64,000 nt of DNA from Siniperca chuatsi (taxonomy: Eukaryota; Chordata; Actinopteri; Centrarchiformes; Sinipercidae), in the NCBI RefSeq assembly GCF_020085105.1, contig NC_058053.1, positions 17,258,388 through 17,322,387 of the forward strand, written 5' to 3'. Below the pieces are notes generated by a model. That model did no database searches and was not told where the DNA came from. It worked only from the letters and a program-made list of their open reading frames with translations. A program made the position numbers and the translations under genes. The first letter of the stretch is position 1; every line of letters begins with the position of its first letter. This document shows positions 52,952 through 64,000 of the stretch, piece after piece.

Positions 52952-55900
52952 ATGAGGGACATGATGGTGATTTATGCCGCTATTATCCTCTTTTTGCCTG
53001 AAGCATGGAGCCATCCAGGTTTGAGCATTAACACATTTTACTCGCATGTGGTTTTAGTACTTAATATTTTTTAGTCTTGGTGAGATACAGTTTTTAGATA
53101 TGAACATGTTTTTTTAGAGGTGCACAAAACCTCCACAAAGATGACCTCGTAAGGAGTTGTCTTCATAGATACTAAGCAAAATTGTATATGTTACTACTAC
53201 AAATGGAGTAATTTTTATACTGTCACTTGTGATACTTTATACTGTATGTAAATATGTTTTGTGAATGTATTGCTATTAGCATGCATTGTAACTCAAATAT
53301 CATGCAGCCATAATAATATAGTTCATTACTGTGTAATCTGTGACATGTTGGTAATATTTGGTTTACAGTAGTGAACTGTAAATGTAAGTGGTTAGCCACT
53401 CTGAGATATCAGTTAAATTGTTGTGGTGTGACTCACGGTGTAGACAGTCAGTGGAAAGAACATGCATGGAGGTGGGGTAATGCAGAAGCTGACAATGGAG
53501 AAAATTGTTCCATAAAAGATGTATGAAAATATGGCCCCATACTTTCTGAATGAACAAGCAGCACGCTGCCTCTTGTTTCTGCAGTGGAAATCATGATTTC
53601 AGATCAGGGTAACACTATAATGCAGCTGTTTTCCACTGGGGGGTCACTGAAAGATGGAAGAGAAACTTCTATTTGAGGTCTATGGTTTTACTATCCCACT
53701 CCATGCGTGGTGTTTGTTTACACCTGTCAGAAGTAAAAAAGCCTCAGGCCCCCATAATACTTAGCAGTGAAAGCACCAGCACCTGAACCCTGAATCTTCC
53801 GATTCATTCCTCTGAAATGACAATACTGAAGTCATGAGCTTCTTCTACAGTGTAGACTATATACAGTCTATGGTCTACATTGTCTACATAGTCTATGGTG
53901 TAGACAAGTAAATGGGGGAGATTATGACAATAACATTTGCCTGTTTTATATGTTTAGGTTTTGCCGTCAGTGATTTCCTTACTTCATATAAGTTTTTTGT
54001 CGTACAGAAGCTCAAGAAACTATTTTCTTCAGCAAGTAATGCAGTTTCTGTCACAAACATCTGTTTTAATCGTATATACCTTTAAAACACACTTTAACTA
54101 ACTAACTTAACTAACAAAACTATATAACGAATAACAGATAAACCACCTTGATTGTTGCTCTGCTGATTAAACACTTCAGAATGAATTACTAACTGCTTTC
54201 TGACTGAAAACAATCTGACTGTTACTAATGTTTTCCTTACATCCACCTCCATCTTTCTCAGGAACTAATCAAAGCACCTCTGACAACTCCACCACTTCTC
54301 CTCCTCCTAAAGTTTATGGTAAACTCATTTTCCCCTTTTTCTCTCCAGCTATTAGAATGAGTAAAATATTAAATAAGATTATTAATATTAAGTAAGATGA
54401 GTGAAGGCACAGGAAGTTGAACACAACAATATACATTTCTTTCCCTCCTTTCCTTATTAATCCTTATTTCAGACATGCAAGCACTTTTTTTGTTGAAATT
54501 AATTGAAAGAATATAAAAAAAATGCTTTTAAACAAGTTATTTCTGAAGAAGAAAGGTTTAGTCATTATTTTTAGTTTATTTTGAAATGTAATTGTGAATT
54601 ATTAAGAGGCTATACCAAATGTTTGCCACTTTAAAAAAATTAATACAAAGCTTATCATTCAGTAGATCTTAAAATACATGTTTAGATTTTGTTAGCCTTG
54701 CATTGTTGTTCTTAAAGATCATAGTTTATTGGGTTTCAGTTTATTTCAAATGAAACCTAATTATTATCATTTAAGACTGATAGTTATCAAATGTTTAATC
54801 CAAAATAATTGATGAGAAGATTTCCTCATGGGACAAATTTTGCATAACATCTTTCTATATGGGCATATTTTGTTGTAATAAACATGAAGCAAACTATTTA
54901 TAGTTAGTTTTATTTTGTTTTATTTCATTAATTTTTAGTTTTTGTCTTTGCATGTCCATATCCCATGCAGAATTGAATCTTTTTTTTCATTTGGTTTTGC
55001 ATGTTTTTTTGTGTATATTACGTTTGTGTATATTACTGTGTATATTGTTTTATAACAGAATAAACCCAAACCATTTCATCAGCGCAATCATTGCACCATA
55101 AAGTGCAAAAATAATGCAACTATTCTTTCCTTTTTTTCAGTTGTCAGAAATTTAGCTTTCAACGTGGGGAGTGATGTTAACCTGACATGCAGCGATAAAA
55201 CATGGAATGACACAATATTTGTTATCTGGACAATAGCCTTGAAGATTATGAAAGCAAATGAAACCTGTAAGATAGCTTTTAGCAATGATGGCCAAAGTAA
55301 GGACTCCTGCAATGATGGGAAGGCACTCCGAAACACATCCAGCGCTCAGTCATACCTGCACATCCCAAACTTCTCAAATTATGATGTGGGGGTCTACAAG
55401 TGTGAGTCGGTTTACACAGGAGGAAACGAAGACTATGAGATCCATGTGGCTATCACAGGTAGGACCTTTCTCCTCACAAGGATAGCTGATTTATAAAAAC
55501 ATGTGATCACTAAGGTTAACTTCTTAAAGGGTCAGTTCACCCAAATCACACTTGCAAAAAATTAATAAAACAGCTAAATCTGCTTACCTCTAGTGACATA
55601 TGTTACTGTGGATAGTTTTTGTTTTACTTGCCTAGATTTTGAAATATCTACTACTTTCCCTTTTATCTCCACTACACAGTGGGGGATATTTTCTGTTCTG
55701 TTTTATGTCCCTGTTACTCTGGATAATATACCAACCTTTACTGTTTTCATCTGGACCTATTTCATACTAAATATAAGAAATTGTGAAGCTGTGAAAAAGT
55801 AAAGCGTAGGCAAGCAATTAAAACTACTTTATCTGCATGGTACTACTATGTGTAAGTGCCAATACATTTTGGGGGTGATTTGGTTGAACTTACCTTTTAA

Positions 55901-56886
55901 TACAGCAAGCTCAAGTATTCAGCGAGTCTCATTTCTCCTTTTCTGTCTTCCCTGGCTCAGTTCCTCCCAGTATATCAGCCTGGTTAGAGCGTAAGGACAA
56001 CAAGATGGTGGCAGTGTGCAAAGCTGAAAGAGGAAAACCTGCTGCCAACATCAGCTGGAGTCATAGAGGAAACTCATCATCTGTGGAAACACTACTTGAC
56101 TCACATGGGTTTTTTACAGTAGAGAGTCTTCTGGAGCTTCCAGAGGGAATGGATACAGTAAATCTGAGCTGTGCTATCAGGCACCCGTACTGGAAAAGGG
56201 AGAAGACTTTGGTACCAGAGCCCAAAAAAGGTCAGGCTTTTGCAGAGTAGACAGCACAAGGGAAAAGATTTAAGATCTGGGGTTAGTGCAGAAGCAATAT
56301 ATTTAAATAAAAAATAAAAAATAAAGTAAAGTTTTATGTTTTTTGGGTAAACATTGACAAGGTGTTTTATATTATAGTGGTAGCTATAACTTTGTAAATA
56401 GACGTGTTGTATTGATGTCCAGCAGATTATTAACAAACATTTAATCTTCACTCTCTCTCTGCAGGTTATATTCCTTGGCTGCGCGTCGTCCTTATTGTTG
56501 TGGTGATCATTGTGTTTCTGGCAGGAGTGTTATTTTTTGCACAAAAGAAATTAATAACGTTGAGGTAAGAATTTTAATTTCATGAAAAATGTATTACAAT
56601 GCGTACTAGCAAGTTTTTTGTTGAGTCACAGAGCTGGTTTGTGCATCCACCTTTTGTCAGGCGATGCCAGCAGTCAGACAGCTCCCCATCCAAATCTCCA
56701 CCGGTAGGCAATCTTTCTGTAACTCTGCAGTTTATAGTTCTGTGTTTTACTGCACACTGTTAAGTTTTGTTCACGACACCTCTCTGTTTTATTCAGACAG
56801 AGGATGTGGAGGAAGTGGAGCCCTATGCCAGCTATGTTCAACGTGTGAACTCTATCTATAACTCATCTGCAGATCTGTTCACATAA
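52952..56886 (+). CDS. cd200r1: CD200 receptor 1-like, copy 1 (intact, 7 coding exons)
   Basis: Type I membrane receptor of the Ig superfamily; in mammals CD200R1 on myeloid cells binds CD200 and inhibits activation. Exons: 52952-53018, 54262-54318, 55141-55458, 55961-56230, 56465-56564, 56661-56703, 56797-56886; 945 nt, 314 residues plus stop, all in frame. Exon 1 is a signal peptide (MRDMMVIYAAIILFLPEAWS). Exon 2 is a 19-residue Ser/Thr/Pro linker. Exon 3 is a V-type Ig domain with NLTC and VYKC cysteines plus the extra TCKIAF...SC pair typical of CD200R. Exon 4 is a C2-type domain with AVCKAERGKPAANISW, very close to human CD200R1 AVCKAVAGKPAA. Exon 5 holds the membrane span. The tail VEEVEPYASYVQRVNSIY parallels the human EPYASY-like and NPLY region that recruits Dok proteins. 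Many N-glycosylation sequons. The symbol follows family resemblance; strict orthology is not proved. Confidence 0.88.
53019..54261 (+). other. CD200R-like copy 1, intron 1
   Basis: A 1.2 kb phase-1 intron. Homology to the second copy begins inside it, at about 53770. Near 53845-53905 there are overlapping direct and inverted copies of GTCTATGG/GTAGAC words that copy 2 lacks. Confidence 0.8.
55524..55850. mobile_element. MITE (TTAAAGGGTCAGTTCACCC) present only in unit 1
   Basis: It begins TTAAAGGGTCAGTTCACCCA in intron 3 of CD200R-like copy 1. The corresponding place in copy 2 (62685-62695) reads straight through. Its internal CTTACCTCTAGTGACAT and AGATTTTGAAATATCTACT blocks match a percomorph MITE related to that at 46527-46854. 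The far terminus is not clearly preserved. Confidence 0.65.
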
Positions 56887-57475
56887 AATCCTGCACATGC
56901 ATCACACATGCACACTTAAATGCACATGGCTCTTTGTGAGAAACTGAAGGCTGTGAAACTGAGAACTAGTGATATAGTAAAGACAGAAGCGTGTGAGATG
57001 AAAGACTTCCGATAAGAGAGGGAAACCTCTCTGTCCTAAACTCTTGACTGATGGAACAGGGGATGTACCTAATGTCACACACTGGCTCCCATGCACCGTA
57101 CATGCAGCCCACTACTCTGTGTGTGAGTTTCATGGAGAAAATTTATGATAACTACAAATGCGGTGAACAGCTGAATTTGGAAAGAATACTGCCTTCAGCT
57201 TCACACAGCACGCCAAAACAACAGAACTAAAGACTTTCATGCTGTCATGAAATACATGGGCTGCAATTATATAATGATGATGATGAGGATGATTATTATT
57301 AGTAGTAGTATTACACATATTTATAGATTAACTGTAAAGAGATGCTCACCTCCTAATGGATACTTGCTGCAGTCAACCCAGCAAAAGTGCCAAGTAGAGA
57401 ACACAGGTGTAATGTGGACAATATTATGTGAAGTATTCATGTTTTGTCTTAATGTATAATTATGTTATTGCATGT

Positions 57476-57481
57476 ATTAAA
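57476..57481 (+). promoter_or_regulatory. cd200r1: CD200R-like copy 1 polyadenylation signal
   Basis: ATTAAA 590 nt after the stop codon, followed about 20 nt later by a GT-rich stretch (TTCTCATTGTTTGTAAGC). It implies a 3' UTR of about 0.6 kb. Confidence 0.55.
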
Positions 57482-59610
57482 CATACATCTCTGCACAAAA
57501 TGTTCTCATTGTTTGTAAGCTCTACAAAAAAACCCTAAAATAAAATTGATCACAAGAACAGGTGATTAGATTCAATTGGAATATTTCAATACTGAATATG
57601 TGCCAGTAGTTAGAGTGACACAAAGTGGGAAAAGCAGTTGTTTACATTACATCGTTTTTCACTCTGGTTAACGTTTAAAAAGCTGAAGTCTCGAGATGAA
57701 TTTTACATCCTTTGTAGACATGTAGCAGAAAGGTAACCAATACTTACTTGAACACCCACATTTTTTGGGGGTGGAAAGGAAATGGAAACTGGAAAGAAGG
57801 ACTGTACTGCCATCTACTAGTGGAGTGGAGACTGTGTTGTATCACAGTCCATGATAAGATGTTTGAACAATGCTAATGATACGTACTTAAATCTAGAACT
57901 GCTGAAAGGATTTTTTAAGTCTGTCTTAAAACAATAGTCAGGTGCCCACATTTACATTGAAACAACTTTTGCTTGCTGTAATAATTCCTCCTGTCCATCC
58001 TGGCCATCAAGAGATGCCTTCCAGTTCTGCATCTGTTCCCCAGTCCTATGTTTTTCCAGTGCCTCCATGTCCTCCCTGTGTTCCTGCGTTCTTGGGGTCC
58101 CTATGGATTACTCTTTGTCAGACTCTTACCTGGACTTCTCAGCCGCCCTCAGTTGTTTCGTGTTTCTCCGTAGTAAGTAATAAAGGTAATCTTTTGTTTA
58201 TTTAACCAGTCCCCGTGCGTCTTGTCTGCTTTTGGGTCCACCTCCTGAACTGAACCATAATAGATAAAGGCATAGACAAAAATGTTTTTTTGGATACACA
58301 TACAAAATACAAATTCTTAAGCTTAAATATCTATTTGTAGTATACTTGGGTGGTGTGCAGCATTTCTCAGGAGCACTATGTTGCAAAATGAGCACAAACT
58401 CTGAAATGCAGATTTAGACATGAATTGTGGACACAATTATATGAACATTACATTCTTCTTTCATGGATTGGATGATGTGGCAATGGCATAAATTGCACAC
58501 ACAATTTAGCCATTTTATTATGCAAACATTTGTGCTAGATTTTAAGTTTGGGCACATAAATGTTGTTAGTAAAGGCTGGCTGAGACAGCTCAATGTGGGG
58601 TTAAATTTCGGCACATCAAACATACTTTGGTTTAAGGTGAAGCAAAGCTTTGGCTCTGTTTCAACAAAAACAGACTATAGATAAACATCAAACTTTTATC
58701 TGCAGTAGAAAATCATAGAGTGACAGCAGATGTACTCACAATAACCAGCCTGACTACAAAGTCACTTCAGTGTTGACTTTCCGTTTACATGGTTACAGAA
58801 CTGTTCTTTTCCTTTCATGGTGGAAAAAAAAAAATCCTCCCACTTTTGAATCACATACACCCCTTGTGTGAAAGCTGAAAGTAACACACTGAATACATTT
58901 TGAAGACAAATTTTTCTACAAACAAAAACGTATGCCATCAAAATAATTACAAAATTTGACACATAGTGGCTTTAATGAACAAAAATAGACTCAACATTGA
59001 TATGGGCAGGTCTACCTTATTATCTGTGCAGCTTTTACCATCTGGTGCCGACTCCCCTGAAAGAGAAAATGTAAATATATAACATATTAATCTTTACAAT
59101 ATGTAGATTTAATCCCCTTGTCATCACTCATTGGAATGATATGCACCCAAGTTTTCAGTCTGACTTTGAAGCCAGGATGTCACAACTTCCTGCTGGGCTG
59201 CTGGGCTCCTGAGTCACTTTAGAACAACGTTGGAGTGTTGTTGGTTGAGATGATAAATCTGTGCAAATTACAAAGGTGAACCCCAGCCCCCTGACAAGAA
59301 GTGACAAGCCCACTTAATAACCTTAATAACTATGTCTCTCAGATTTGTTTTGAGGATGACCTACATCTGTGAAAATAAGTGTTTCTGTAAGGGTGTATTA
59401 CAGAATTAAATTGCAAAGATAATACACAATATGCAATTTTCAAAACCTTAATATAGTGTGCATTTTCACATGGGTGGACATTGTAAACTGTGTTATTTCA
59501 TGACATTGAAATACACATGTGCAGGAAGGTCAGGAAGTGGTGAGCTTGTCATGCGCGGAATGAGCCCATGCAGTTGCTACAGTTTTAGATCATCTGTAAA
59601 GTCTTAGGTA
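57482..59610. other. Spacer between the two CD200R-like copies
   Basis: The first 0.5 kb is the 3' end of duplication unit 1. A stretch at about 58018-58258 resembles the terminal part of an LTR retroelement (AATAAAGG... TTTGGGTCCACCTCCTGAAC). The rest is AT-rich with no exon recognised. Confidence 0.6.
58018..58258 (+). mobile_element. Possible LTR-element terminal fragment
   Basis: A C/T-rich stretch leads to TAATAAAGGTAATC and then GTCTGCTTTTGGGTCCACC, the order of poly(A) signal and R-U5-like end seen in teleost Ty3/Gypsy-type LTRs. Unit 2 homology stops at its left edge (after GAGATG), consistent with an insertion. The evidence is weak. Confidence 0.3.
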
Positions 59611-60436
59611 ATGAACACGTCAAGCCTAATGGATAGACTGTCGTACATCTATCTGCTGATATTCATGTGTTTTACATTTGTCTGCACCTATGGAAGTGCT
59701 CAAGGTAAGCCTTAACACTCTTTTATTTTGTGATTTGACTTTCAACAGAGCATGAGGGAACATTTTGAATAGATTGGAGTCATTGACTGGACAAGAGTAA
59801 ACAATAAGGCTTAAGATTACAGCCCGTAACTTACATTGCAATTATTTAATCTATACGAGGTATAAATAAAATACACATTGGGTACCCTCTGCAGTAAATG
59901 CCAGCCAATGAACCCTCAATTTTTTGATTTATTTCTCTGAAATAACAACGCTAATGTCATGCGCTTCTTCCACAGAGTCGACAAGTAAATGGGGGAGATG
60001 ACAATAACATTTGCCTGTTTTATGTGTTTATGTTTTATTGTCAGTAAGTTCCTTACTCCAGTTTTGCAAGAAAAAATAAACTATTTTTGTCAGCAAATAA
60101 TGCAGTTTCTGTCACAGCCGTCTGTGATTTAGCCCTGCTGTAGTTGGTCATGTGAGACTAGTTTTAATCGCATAAACTTTTAAAACACAACTTAAATAAC
60201 TAACTCAACTAACTAATTTAAACAATGAATAACAGTTAAATCACCTTGATTGCTGCTCTGCTGATTGAACACTTCACAATAAATCACTGACTGCTGCTTT
60301 GTGACTGAAAAAAAATCTGACTCTGAATCTGTTTTACTAACGCTTTCCTTACATCCATCTCCATCGTTCTTAGGAACTAATCAAAGCAGTTACACCTCTG
60401 ACAACTCTACCACTTCTCCTCCTCCTAAAGTTTATG

Positions 60437-62385
60437 GTAAACTCATTTCCCCCTTTTTCTCTCCAGCTATTAGAATGAGTAAAATATGAAATAAGATTAT
60501 TTATATTAAGTAAGATGAGTGAAGGCACAGGAAGTTGAACACAACAATTTACATTTCTATCCTTCCTTTCCTTATTTCAGACATGCAAGCACTTTTTTGT
60601 TGAAATGAATTGAAAGAATATAAAAATATGCTTTAAAACAAGTTATTTCTGAAGAAGAAAGGTTTAGTCATTATTTTTAGTTTATTTTGAAATGTAATTG
60701 TGAATTATTAAGAGGCTATACCAAATTCAAAGTTTGCCACTTTAAAAATTATTACAAAACTTTTTTCATTCAGTATATCTTAAAATACATGTTTGGATTT
60801 TGTTAGCTTTGCATTGTTGTTCTTGGTAATTTTATTTTGAAAGGTCATAGTTTATTTCAAATGAAATTTTATTATTATAATTTTAGACTGTTATCACATA
60901 TTTAATCCAAAATAATTGCTAAGAAGGTTTCCTCATGGAACAAATCTTACATTACATCTTTCTGTATGGGCATATTTACAGTTATAAACATAAAGCAACT
61001 ATATAATTTATTTTAGAACTGTGTTTTTATACTGTATCATGCTTTGGGGCAAGGGCTAACCTGCATAATAAACTGTAAAGCAACACAAAACGGCATAATG
61101 TAAAGCTTCCAAGTTTAACGTTGATAACATTATCGATCCATCCTTGAGCTTAAGTTTTAATCCTAGTTTCAAGAATCCTAGTTTGTAAATTAACATTACC
61201 GGCCCTCATCGAGAATACAATCCGAAGCAAAATGGTTATCGCACACATTTATAAGTTTTACAGTTGTTGTCAGGACGTTTCCATCAAAAATAAAGTTTAT
61301 CCACTCTGTCTTCGCTTCCTCTGGTGGTGGGAGTAGATGAAGATGTTTGTGTTGATAATGCAGCCAACAACAGAGAAACTGGCATGCTTTGCTCGTTTCC
61401 TTTGTGTTACCGGAGTCGGCGTTAGCAAGAAAATAACCATGGCAGACAGCGAGGTGGAGTCACTATGTATTCACTCTTTGATTGGATTAAATGTTGGAGG
61501 GATTTGTTTTTGCCTGCTTTATTTAACCTAATGTCTTAGAGTGGATGGGAATGATTGAAATGTCTTTTTACTGTAAGGGGCCGTTCAGATGTTGCGTCTT
61601 TTGCTCGCACAAATTCGTCATTTTCAATGGAGAGGCGCGACAATGGTGCTCAAAGAGACACCATTACGGCACACATGCGTCGCGACACTCTTGTATTTGG
61701 GGCGTGGTGCACCGAGATGGAAAATCTCAACTTTTTCGAATACAGCTGGCACACCGCAGGTCTTGAGACAAGAATTAACCAATCAGCTTCACATTACTTG
61801 CTTCACCCTCCGTCCAAGCACGTCACAACATCCAGTTGAAAGGTCAGCCAAACTGAAGTAACTGAAGATGGAAGAGCGACTGATGTACTTATTCAGACTG
61901 ACTATGATTTGGACTTGTTGCTTAGTAACAGCAGGTGCGACCGTAGCGCAACCTCCCAAGCACCTTGGATAAAAGCATGAAAGCGTTGCGGATGCTGTTT
62001 TCCATGTGATTTTAGACGCGACATCTGAATGGCCTCTAAGTGTTGCAATATAAGGGCATTTGTGGGGATACAGTAAATCGTGACTTGGGACAAGGGGTGT
62101 AAAGTGGGGGGGGCCAATAGCCCCTTGGCCCCCCTACTTCCAGCGCCCATGCTTCATGCCTAGTTATATCTGTGTTATGCGCTATTTATAGTTTGTTTTA
62201 TTATATTTTATTAATTTTTTAGTTTTCGTCTTCGCATGTCTTTTTGCCATGCAGAATTGAATCTTTTTTTTCATTTGGTTTTGCATGTTTTTCTGTGTAT
62301 ATATATTATTTTATAACAGAATAAACCCAAACCATTTCATCAGCGCAATCATTGCACCACTAAGTGCAAAAATAATGCAACAATA
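60437..62385 (+). other. CD200R-like copy 2, intron 2 with inserted segment
   Basis: Aligned with copy 1 to about 60996 and again from about 62170. The 1.17 kb between is absent from copy 1 and includes the Harbinger-type MITE at 61577-62036. The rest of the insertion (61000-61576) is unassigned, with no convincing gene. Confidence 0.75.
61577..62036. mobile_element. 460-bp PIF/Harbinger-type MITE with TAA target duplication
   Basis: GGGGCCGTTCAGATGTTGCG at the left end and, in reverse complement, GAGGCCATTCAGATGTCGCG at the right end are 22-bp TIRs with a few mismatches. TAA flanks both sides (61574-61576 and 62037-62039), the 3-bp target duplication of PIF/Harbinger elements. GC-rich and CpG-containing in an AT-rich setting. 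It has no transposase. Confidence 0.75.
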
Positions 62386-63679
62386 TTTTGTTATCTGGAC
62401 AATAGCCTTGAAGATTATGAAAGCAAATGAAACCTGTAAGATAGCTTTTAGCAATGATGGCCAAAGTAAGGACTCCTGCAATGATGGGAAGGCACTCCGA
62501 AACACATCCAGCACTCATACCTGCACATCCCAAACTTCTCAAATTATGATGTGGGGGTCTACAAGTGTGAGTCCGTTTACACTGGAGGAAACGAAGACTA
62601 TGAGATCCACGTGGCTATCACAGGTAGGACCTTTCTCCTCACAAGGATAGCTGATTTATAAAAACATGTGATCACTAAGGTTAACTTAAAACTGCCAATA
62701 CATTTTTGGGGGTGATTTTGTTGAAACTAACCTTTTAATACAGTAAGCTCAAGTATTCAGCGAGTCTCATTTCTCCTTTTCTGTCTTCCCTGGCTCAGTT
62801 CCTCCCAGTATATCAGCCTGGTTAGAGCGTAAGGACAACAAGATGGTGGCAGTGTGCAAAGCTGAAAGAGGAAAACCTGCTGCCAACATCAGCTGGAGTC
62901 ATAGAGGAAACTCATCATCTGTGGAAACACTACTTGACTCACATGGGTTTTTTACAGTAGAGAGTCTTCTGGAGCTTCCAGAGGGAATGGATACAGTAAA
63001 CCTGAGCTGTGCTATCAGGCACCCGTACTGGAAAAGGGAGAAGACTTTGGTACCAGAGCCCAAAAAAGGTCAGGCTTTTGCAGAGTAGACAGCACAAGGG
63101 AAAAGATTTAAGATCTGGGGTTAGTGCAGAAGCAATATATTTAAATAAAAAATAAAAAATAAAGTAAAGTTTTATGTTTTTTGGGTAAACATTGACAAGG
63201 TGTTTTATATTATAGTGGTAGCTATAACTTTGTAAATAGATGTGTTGTATTGATGTCCAGCAGATTATTAACAAACATTTAATCTTCACTCTCTCTCTGC
63301 AGGTTATATTCCTTGGCTGCGCGTCGTCCTTATTGTTGTGGTGATCATTGTGTTTTTGGCAGGAGTGTTATTTTTTGCACAAAAGAAATTAATAACGTTG
63401 AGGTAAGAATTTTAATTTCATGAAAAATGTATTACAATGCGTACTAGCAAGTTTTTTGTTGAGTCACAGAGCTGGTTTGTGCATCCACCTTTTGTCAGGC
63501 GATGCCAGCAGTCAGACAGCTCCCCATCCAAATCTCCACCGGTAGGCAATCTTTCTGTAACTCTGCAGTTTATAGTTCTGTGTTTTACTGCACACTGTTA
63601 AGTTTTGTTCACGACACCTCTCTGTTTTATTCAGACAGAGGATGTGGAGGAAGTGGAGCCCTACCCTAACCCTACCTGA

Positions 63680-64000
63680 GGAACTGTTCTGCCATCTACT
63701 GGTGGAAATCAGAATATAATCCATCATCATCATAATCATCATCATCTGTATATGATAAAATGTCTGAATGCTAATAATACATACTTCTAGAACTGCTGAA
63801 AGGTTAGTTTGTTTTCAAGTCCCTCTTAAAACAATAGTCAGATGTTGCTGTAATAATTCCTCCTGTTCACACTGGCCATCAAGAGATGTCTCCCTAATAT
63901 GCTTCAAATGTAACCGATTGGGGACAAAATCTACAGTCCACTAACACACAGCCGGGGTCTAGACTTTCTGTTTGAATTCTGCTATTAAATTGTAGGCTGC
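63680..64000. other. 3' flank of CD200R-like copy 2
   Basis: Matches the 3' flank of copy 1 (57807 onward) to about 63890, including CTGCCATCTACT and CTTAAAACAATAGTCAG. It contains a short (ATC)n-like run at 63720-63747. After 63890 the sequence is unique and non-coding to the window end. Confidence 0.7.

Follow-up and report, generated by a model that had tools for sequence, protein, structure and literature searches.

An inhibitory CD200R gene of Siniperca chuatsi and its neighboring BTLA/CD200R chimera, most likely a pseudogene

The published systems closest to the locus described here are cited from excerpts of the papers named. In mammals, CD200 and its receptor CD200R contact each other through their N-terminal V-type domains (PMC3664923, PMC8104416), and the transmembrane segment of CD200R1L contains a lysine for DAP12 (PMC8104416). 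The cytoplasmic tail of mammalian CD200R contains the motif EEDExxPYxxYxxKxNxxY; the bony fish motif keeps Ser288, Arg292 and Ile296, and Pro295 varies (PMC8007030). The present locus is found in the fish Siniperca chuatsi, in a window of 64,000 nucleotides (contig NC_058053.1, positions 17,258,388 to 17,322,387 of the forward strand). Positions above 64000 are window coordinates carried on into the downstream flank. Two CD200R-like copies are arranged in tandem and are followed by a BTLA-like gene. Most likely, copy 1 is an inhibitory CD200R and copy 2 is a chimeric BTLA/CD200R duplicate that has been partly homogenized and is now a pseudogene.

As in the mammalian CD200R1/CD200R1L pair, two genes adjoin and one of them is short-tailed, copy 1 being a CD200R by sequence and tail motif. 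Unlike CD200R1L, copy 2 has no usable V exon and no gained lysine, and it begins with a BTLA exon. Human FCGR2C, a hybrid of FCGR2B and FCGR2A, also results from a duplication across neighboring immune receptor genes with the hybrid at the joint (excerpts of PMC6563257). There, similar paralogues recombined and an ectodomain was joined to a tail, whereas here unlike genes are joined in introns after the signal exon. For SIGLEC11 and SIGLEC16, paired receptors of which one is often nonfunctional, gene conversion between the two is described (excerpts of PMC5701461). In that pair conversion keeps ligand binding similar, whereas the damaged V exon of copy 2 was not restored. No paper on fish CD200R-BTLA synteny was found in open-licence full texts. 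Among the matches listed for open-licence papers, judged by title, none concerned a teleost CD200R locus, a chimeric fish CD200R/BTLA or teleost BTLA; those listed for the chimera dealt with cancer, atherosclerosis or general immunology.

Copy 1 and the tandem duplication

By its sequence, copy 1 is an ordinary inhibitory CD200R, for which binding of CD200 is predicted. It encodes 314 amino acids in seven exons with splice sites present and matching phases. All exons of both copies and both duplicated units lie on the forward strand. Exon 1 (52952–53018) encodes the signal peptide MRDMMVIYAAIILFLPEAWSHP (judged by eye) and has a weak-looking donor (cag/gtttga); it is located 5' of the duplicated unit and is not part of it. 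In the gene model, exon 2 (54262–54318) encodes a Ser/Thr/Pro-rich N-terminal stretch, exon 3 (55141–55458) the Ig V-type domain and exon 4 (55961–56230) the Ig C2-type domain, both domains with PDB and Pfam matches. These are followed by the transmembrane segment (exon 5, 56465–56564), a cytoplasmic exon 6 (56661–56703) and exon 7 (56797–56886), which encodes the cytoplasmic tail with the CD200R signaling motif EDVEEVEPYASYVQRVNSIY and the stop codon. Compared to the motif in the excerpts of PMC8007030, this tail contains the acidic stretch and PYxxYxx(K/R)xNxxY, with S, R and I at the places typical of fish.

Among 156 PDB matches, the top three places are taken by CD200R chains, two of CD200R1 and one of CD200R4 (8.6e-15, 6.3e-11, 2e-10), with matches in residues 25–224; the fourth-best match is at 7.6e-7. 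In Pfam, Ig_3, ig and C2-set_2 are above their cut-offs and V-set is slightly under (25.1 of 26 bits). The original prediction of an intact, CD200R-like receptor with two Ig domains and a signaling-type tail thus describes copy 1 correctly. Mouse CD200R has an extra V-domain disulfide between the C' strand and the C''D loop. A corresponding bond is predicted for copy 1 from the sequence alignment only, with Cys 84 aligned with a mouse cysteine and Cys 98 one place off. The D-E cysteines of the mouse C2 domain are absent from copy 1, where that domain contains only Cys 167 and Cys 218. A genome-wide search with exons 3–7 (21 of 21 candidates scored) gave 13 exon matches, ten of them at this locus in both copies. 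The remaining three are weak (E-values of 0.017 to 0.21). Thus, copies 1 and 2 are the only CD200R-like genes found.

Unit 1 of the duplication (53764–59885) spans CD200R from intron 1 to exon 7, then intergenic DNA, and then a second version of the start of the BTLA-like gene, with its upstream DNA, its exon 1 and a portion of its intron 1. Unit 2 (59891–64000 within the window) runs on to ~70205 in a self-comparison including the flanks, well past position 63890, at which the pair had been thought to end. The edges were set by eye on the alignments; the segments of the divergence analyses below have unit edges 1–2 bases off these. The two units match over stretches of 974 bp (99.1%) and 318 bp (96.5%), far above chance. 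The novel junction (59885..59891, from alignments and the letters themselves) joins BTLA intron 1, which ends at 59885, to CD200R intron 1, which starts at 59891. Outside both units lie CD200R exon 1 at the left and the BTLA V exon at the right. This order of the units, together with the outer exons, points to a one-step tandem duplication with one end in CD200R intron 1 and the other in BTLA intron 1. While its product can be read from the sequence, the direction would follow from the unit order.

The tandem pair was originally described as having a shared exon order. The two units are indeed collinear and their exons 2 to 7 homologous, but exon 1 is not shared; in copy 2 it comes from the BTLA-like gene. 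The BTLA-derived part of copy 2 consists of upstream DNA and exon 1 (59525–59704, ATG at 59629) with the signal peptide MDRLSYIYLLIFMCFTFVCTYGSAQ (by eye). Similarity of this exon (59629–59704) to exon 1 of copy 1 is at chance level, with 191 of 500 shuffles scoring as high, and remains so when 150 bases of flank are included (144 of 500). Compared to an exon ~10 kb downstream and outside the window (69949–70024), on the other hand, 74 of 76 bases are identical. In the surrounding region (59525–59800 and 69845–70120) 6 of 276 columns differ. Farther upstream, the match of 59444–59640 to the BTLA region continues with gaps (5 of 177 aligned columns differ), and in the self-comparison the whole of 59444–59885 has its second match at 69733–70205.

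The downstream gene is named BTLA-like after its V-type exon (70525–70854). The five best of 49 PDB matches to this exon are BTLA chains (9.8e-8 to 4.1e-7), and the next match is at 0.0012. Exon 69949–70024 precedes the V exon and joins it in phase 1, giving MDRLSYIYLLIFMCFTLVCTYGSAQDLFPSCEVGLMV. Given this position and phase, it is most likely an exon of the BTLA-like gene, and exon 1 of copy 2 is most likely its duplicate. A transmembrane exon is modeled at 71069–71197. A putative tail open reading frame (ORF) beyond it (72193–72501, seen as an ORF only) contains VYAVI and TEYAAI, which are candidate tyrosine-based inhibitory motifs.

A genome search with 59400–59885 returned four matches. 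Besides the region itself and the BTLA copy, these are two short hits of 76 and 64 bp confined to the intron end. With just these matches, exon 1 was not found as a common repeat, while the intron end may be one. The short matches are located on C14 and C17 (~80%) and cover the BTLA-derived intron end beside the junction (59809–59885), so a repeat may sit at the duplication breakpoint. A start resembling a leader peptide is present in ORFs within intron 1 of both copies (MGEIMTITFACFICLGFAVS at 53912–53965 and MGEMTITFACFMCLCFIVS at 59989–60040). The ORFs at 53912 and 59989 were rejected as exons, as their possible donors are out of phase with exon 2 (by eye).

Through the duplication, CD200R exons 2–7 would have come to lie behind a further copy of the BTLA upstream region and signal-peptide exon. 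The BTLA-derived exon 1 joins CD200R exon 2 in phase 1. With all joins in phase 1, the newborn hybrid gene could have encoded the full CD200R body, presumably driven by BTLA upstream DNA. Since their exons join in the same phase, phase 1, neighboring immune checkpoint genes could thus swap promoters and signal exons through a single tandem duplication. Alternatively, BTLA transcription might also start in the duplicated region, which would then provide an additional upstream promoter and first exon, and the CD200R exons would be skipped. The exon at 59629 is in a phase that would allow splicing to the BTLA V exon, would give nearly the same signal peptide and lies among the less diverged stretches (the 6 of 276 columns given above). 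Such a transcript requires a splice of ~10.8 kb past intact CD200R acceptors, however, and intergenic DNA can be little diverged as well (1 of 381 columns at 58441–58821), which makes this explanation very unlikely.

Lesions and coding capacity of copy 2

Exon 2 of copy 2 (60374–60436, from the alignment and gene model) has phase 1 at both ends and a 6-bp in-frame insertion compared to copy 1. A dispersed repeat is present in intron 2 (61055–62150) and absent from copy 1; with itself counted, at least 56 matches occur in the genome (40 of 337 candidates scored). The V exon is reduced to a remnant (62380–62623). Its acceptor and the first 71 of 318 bp are gone, and with these the B-strand cysteine, the first of the V domain. 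Furthermore, a 1-bp insertion and a 4-bp deletion cause two frameshifts. Exon 4 (62799–63068; Ig C2-type domain, PDB match), exon 5 (63303–63402; transmembrane segment identical in protein sequence to that of copy 1) and exon 6 (63499–63541) follow in the gene model. Exon 7 (63635–63679) is truncated. Its copy-1-like sequence ends at 63663, after EPY, and is followed by PNPT and a stop codon, so that the tail TEDVEEVEPYPNPT has the end EPYPNPT. From this break through the original 3' end, ~970 bp of copy 1 sequence are missing. All exons apart from the V exon have kept their GT/AG splice sites.

A damaged V-type exon and a copy on its way to being lost had been anticipated, and these lesions support both. 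The short tail had been described as free of tyrosines; it is shortened, but one of the three tyrosines of copy 1 is left. The losses at the V exon, which concern its acceptor and part of its sequence, at the end of the tail and at the original 3' end would be lesions that gene conversion left in place.

A telomere-like sequence, CCCTAACCCTA, is located at 63664–63674, exactly at the break in the last exon. Counting both strands, it occurs once in the window, where 0.02 occurrences are expected by base composition (noticed post hoc), and may be the trace of a repaired double-strand break.

Use of the V remnant via a cryptic acceptor was considered and rejected. Fifteen of 16 AG sites at 62182–62560 lead to an early stop. 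The sole open one (exon start 62492) is preceded by a purine-rich stretch (by eye) and would give a partial V domain only.

One alternative is that copies 1 and 2 form a pair like mammalian CD200R1 and CD200R1L, with copy 2 in the activating or decoy role. Copy 2 adjoins an inhibitory gene and has the same C2 domain. Like CD200R1L, it has a short tail without the full signaling motif, and the mammalian arrangement is a precedent (excerpts of PMC8104416 and PMC3664923). Copy 2 has no usable V exon, however, whereas an intact V domain belongs to the CD200R1L type. The transmembrane segment IPWLRVVLIVVVIIVFLAGVLFFAQKK is the same in both copies and has gained no charge; its single arginine near the outer edge is also found in the inhibitory copy 1, and the translation of exon 5 contains no transmembrane lysine of the CD200R1L type. 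Moreover, the shortening of the tail coincides with the loss of the original 3' end and thus looks like a deletion. Overall, an activating or decoy partner is highly improbable, and one in the mammalian style was rejected on the basis of the V and transmembrane exons. Without a V domain and a transmembrane lysine, copy 2 does not form the comparable pair that had been suggested.

Mosaic divergence of the two units

Copy 2 is probably a chimeric pseudogene whose young look was kept by gene conversion. Units 1 and 2 differ in 214 of 4139 aligned columns (5.2%), but mismatches range from 0 to ~19% along the unit. Mismatches are frequent at the 5' edge of the units (14.6%, 62 of 425) and at the 3' edge in the BTLA intron (18.8%, 16 of 85), a stretch that also has repeat-like matches elsewhere. 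Mismatches amount to 10.2% at both 54651–54875 and 54894–55015 and to 12.4% (22 of 177) in the flank at 57796–58022. They are fewer at 54263–54650 (3.2%, 12 of 374) and in the core at 55212–56826 (12 of 1278). Within the core, coding and noncoding columns differ alike (7 of 686 and 5 of 592, respectively). Amid more diverged intergenic DNA, the block at 58441–58821 differs in 1 of 381 columns from its match near 64.5–64.9 kb; such a block could have arisen as a conversion tract or have been retained as a regulatory element.

The mismatches are over-dispersed among 41 blocks of 100 columns (chi-square 208.8, p ~1e-24). The longest identical run has 378 columns, a length not reached in 10000 shuffles (largest 262). 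Divergence is 8.9% within 25 columns of an indel or unit end, 9.5% at 25–50 columns and 1.2% at 250 columns or more (gap threshold 25). The trend is similar with gap thresholds of 10 and 15. Such a decrease away from indels is as expected if mismatched ends hinder conversion.

Selection was considered as the cause of the clean exons 4–7 of copy 2 and rejected because the introns between them are equally clean. The low divergence is therefore not due to coding constraint and says nothing on selection. Since introns and some of the intergenic DNA have stayed as intact as exons, conversion is the simpler cause, and clean exons are a poor guide to the fate of a duplicate. A simple unequal crossover that leaves a wholly copy-1-like 3' end does not account for the 12.4% difference of the flank at 57796–58022; conversion, or a crossover followed by a deletion, is needed. 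A conversion junction exactly at the V lesion was also considered, but there are too few sites to place it. The simplest reading of the mosaic would be an older duplication followed by gene conversion that partly homogenized the units; crossover and later deletion would also be allowed.

The ~99% identical core might also suggest that an alternative allele or a collapsed repeat was placed in tandem during assembly, and this identity is presumably within the range possible for alleles. The mean divergence of 5.2%, the stretches of 10–19% and the indels private to one unit are at odds with this explanation. Additionally, the BTLA/CD200R junction is not expected in a single allele of either gene, and the examined stretch of 132 kb contains no Ns. 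An assembly artefact is hence barely credible.

Several points weigh against a pseudogene kept young by conversion. The shuffles of identical runs do not model uneven mutation rates, and the indel-distance test is partly circular, since indels, too, accumulate in older stretches. Calling the downstream neighbor BTLA relies on modest E-values and position. The reading frame of copy 2 across exons 1-2-4-5-6-7 is open and encodes 198 amino acids; exons 2, 3 and 4 are all in phase 1, so skipping exon 3 leaves it open. Both differences from copy 1 in exons 4 and 5 are synonymous, which would fit a kept protein, although two changes are too few for a test.

BTLA is mainly a lymphocyte gene. Copy 2 may accordingly be read as a working gene that provides lymphocytes of the BTLA type with a V-less, short-tailed CD200R by splicing exon 2 to exon 4. 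The GT/AG sites, phase 1 at exons 1, 2 and 4, the open frame and possible poly-A signals at 63984 and 64306 agree with this. The best PDB match of the 198-residue protein is still CD200R (9.2e-6). Furthermore, pig B cells express CD200R1X2, a CD200R1 product that likewise has no V domain (excerpts of PMC8104416). The pig product arises by splicing, is termed inhibitory and does not come from a separate short-tailed gene, whereas copy 2 is a separate gene that has its V exon broken in the DNA and retains little of the tail motif. Only one of three tail tyrosines is left, the domain that binds CD200 in mammals is gone, and homogenization accounts for the intact exons. A working gene of this kind is therefore unlikely.

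In a more specific and unlikely version, the promoter-swapped hybrid would act in lymphocytes as a CD200R with no V domain and hardly any tail, and conversion from the neighboring genes would preserve its promoter, C2 and membrane exons. If true, a checkpoint receptor would have been born from two adjacent checkpoint genes. For the pseudogene, which is the preferred reading, splicing of exon 2 to exon 4 would at best yield a V-less, almost tail-less protein from a predicted chimeric transcript.

Neighborhood of the locus

Upstream in the window, single ORFs match GSK3B (1.6e-33) and NR1I2 (7.3e-17). Downstream, three Ig-type exons were found on the reverse strand. A C2-type exon (80898–81335) has no CD200 among the best 60 of its 2949 PDB matches. 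The best PDB match of the V exon at 85640–86158 is mouse CD200 (4bfi_B, OX-2, 3.8e-9), closely followed by nectin-3 (6e-9 and 7.1e-9). A second, similar V exon (87419–87826) is ambiguous in family, with CD276 first at 5.4e-6 and OX-2 at 0.0073. The CD200-like V exon lies ~15 kb past the BTLA V exon on the opposite strand. The ligand gene may thus adjoin that of its receptor; if this exon is CD200, both would be located within ~35 kb. The human relatives of these neighborhood genes are on chromosome 3q13.

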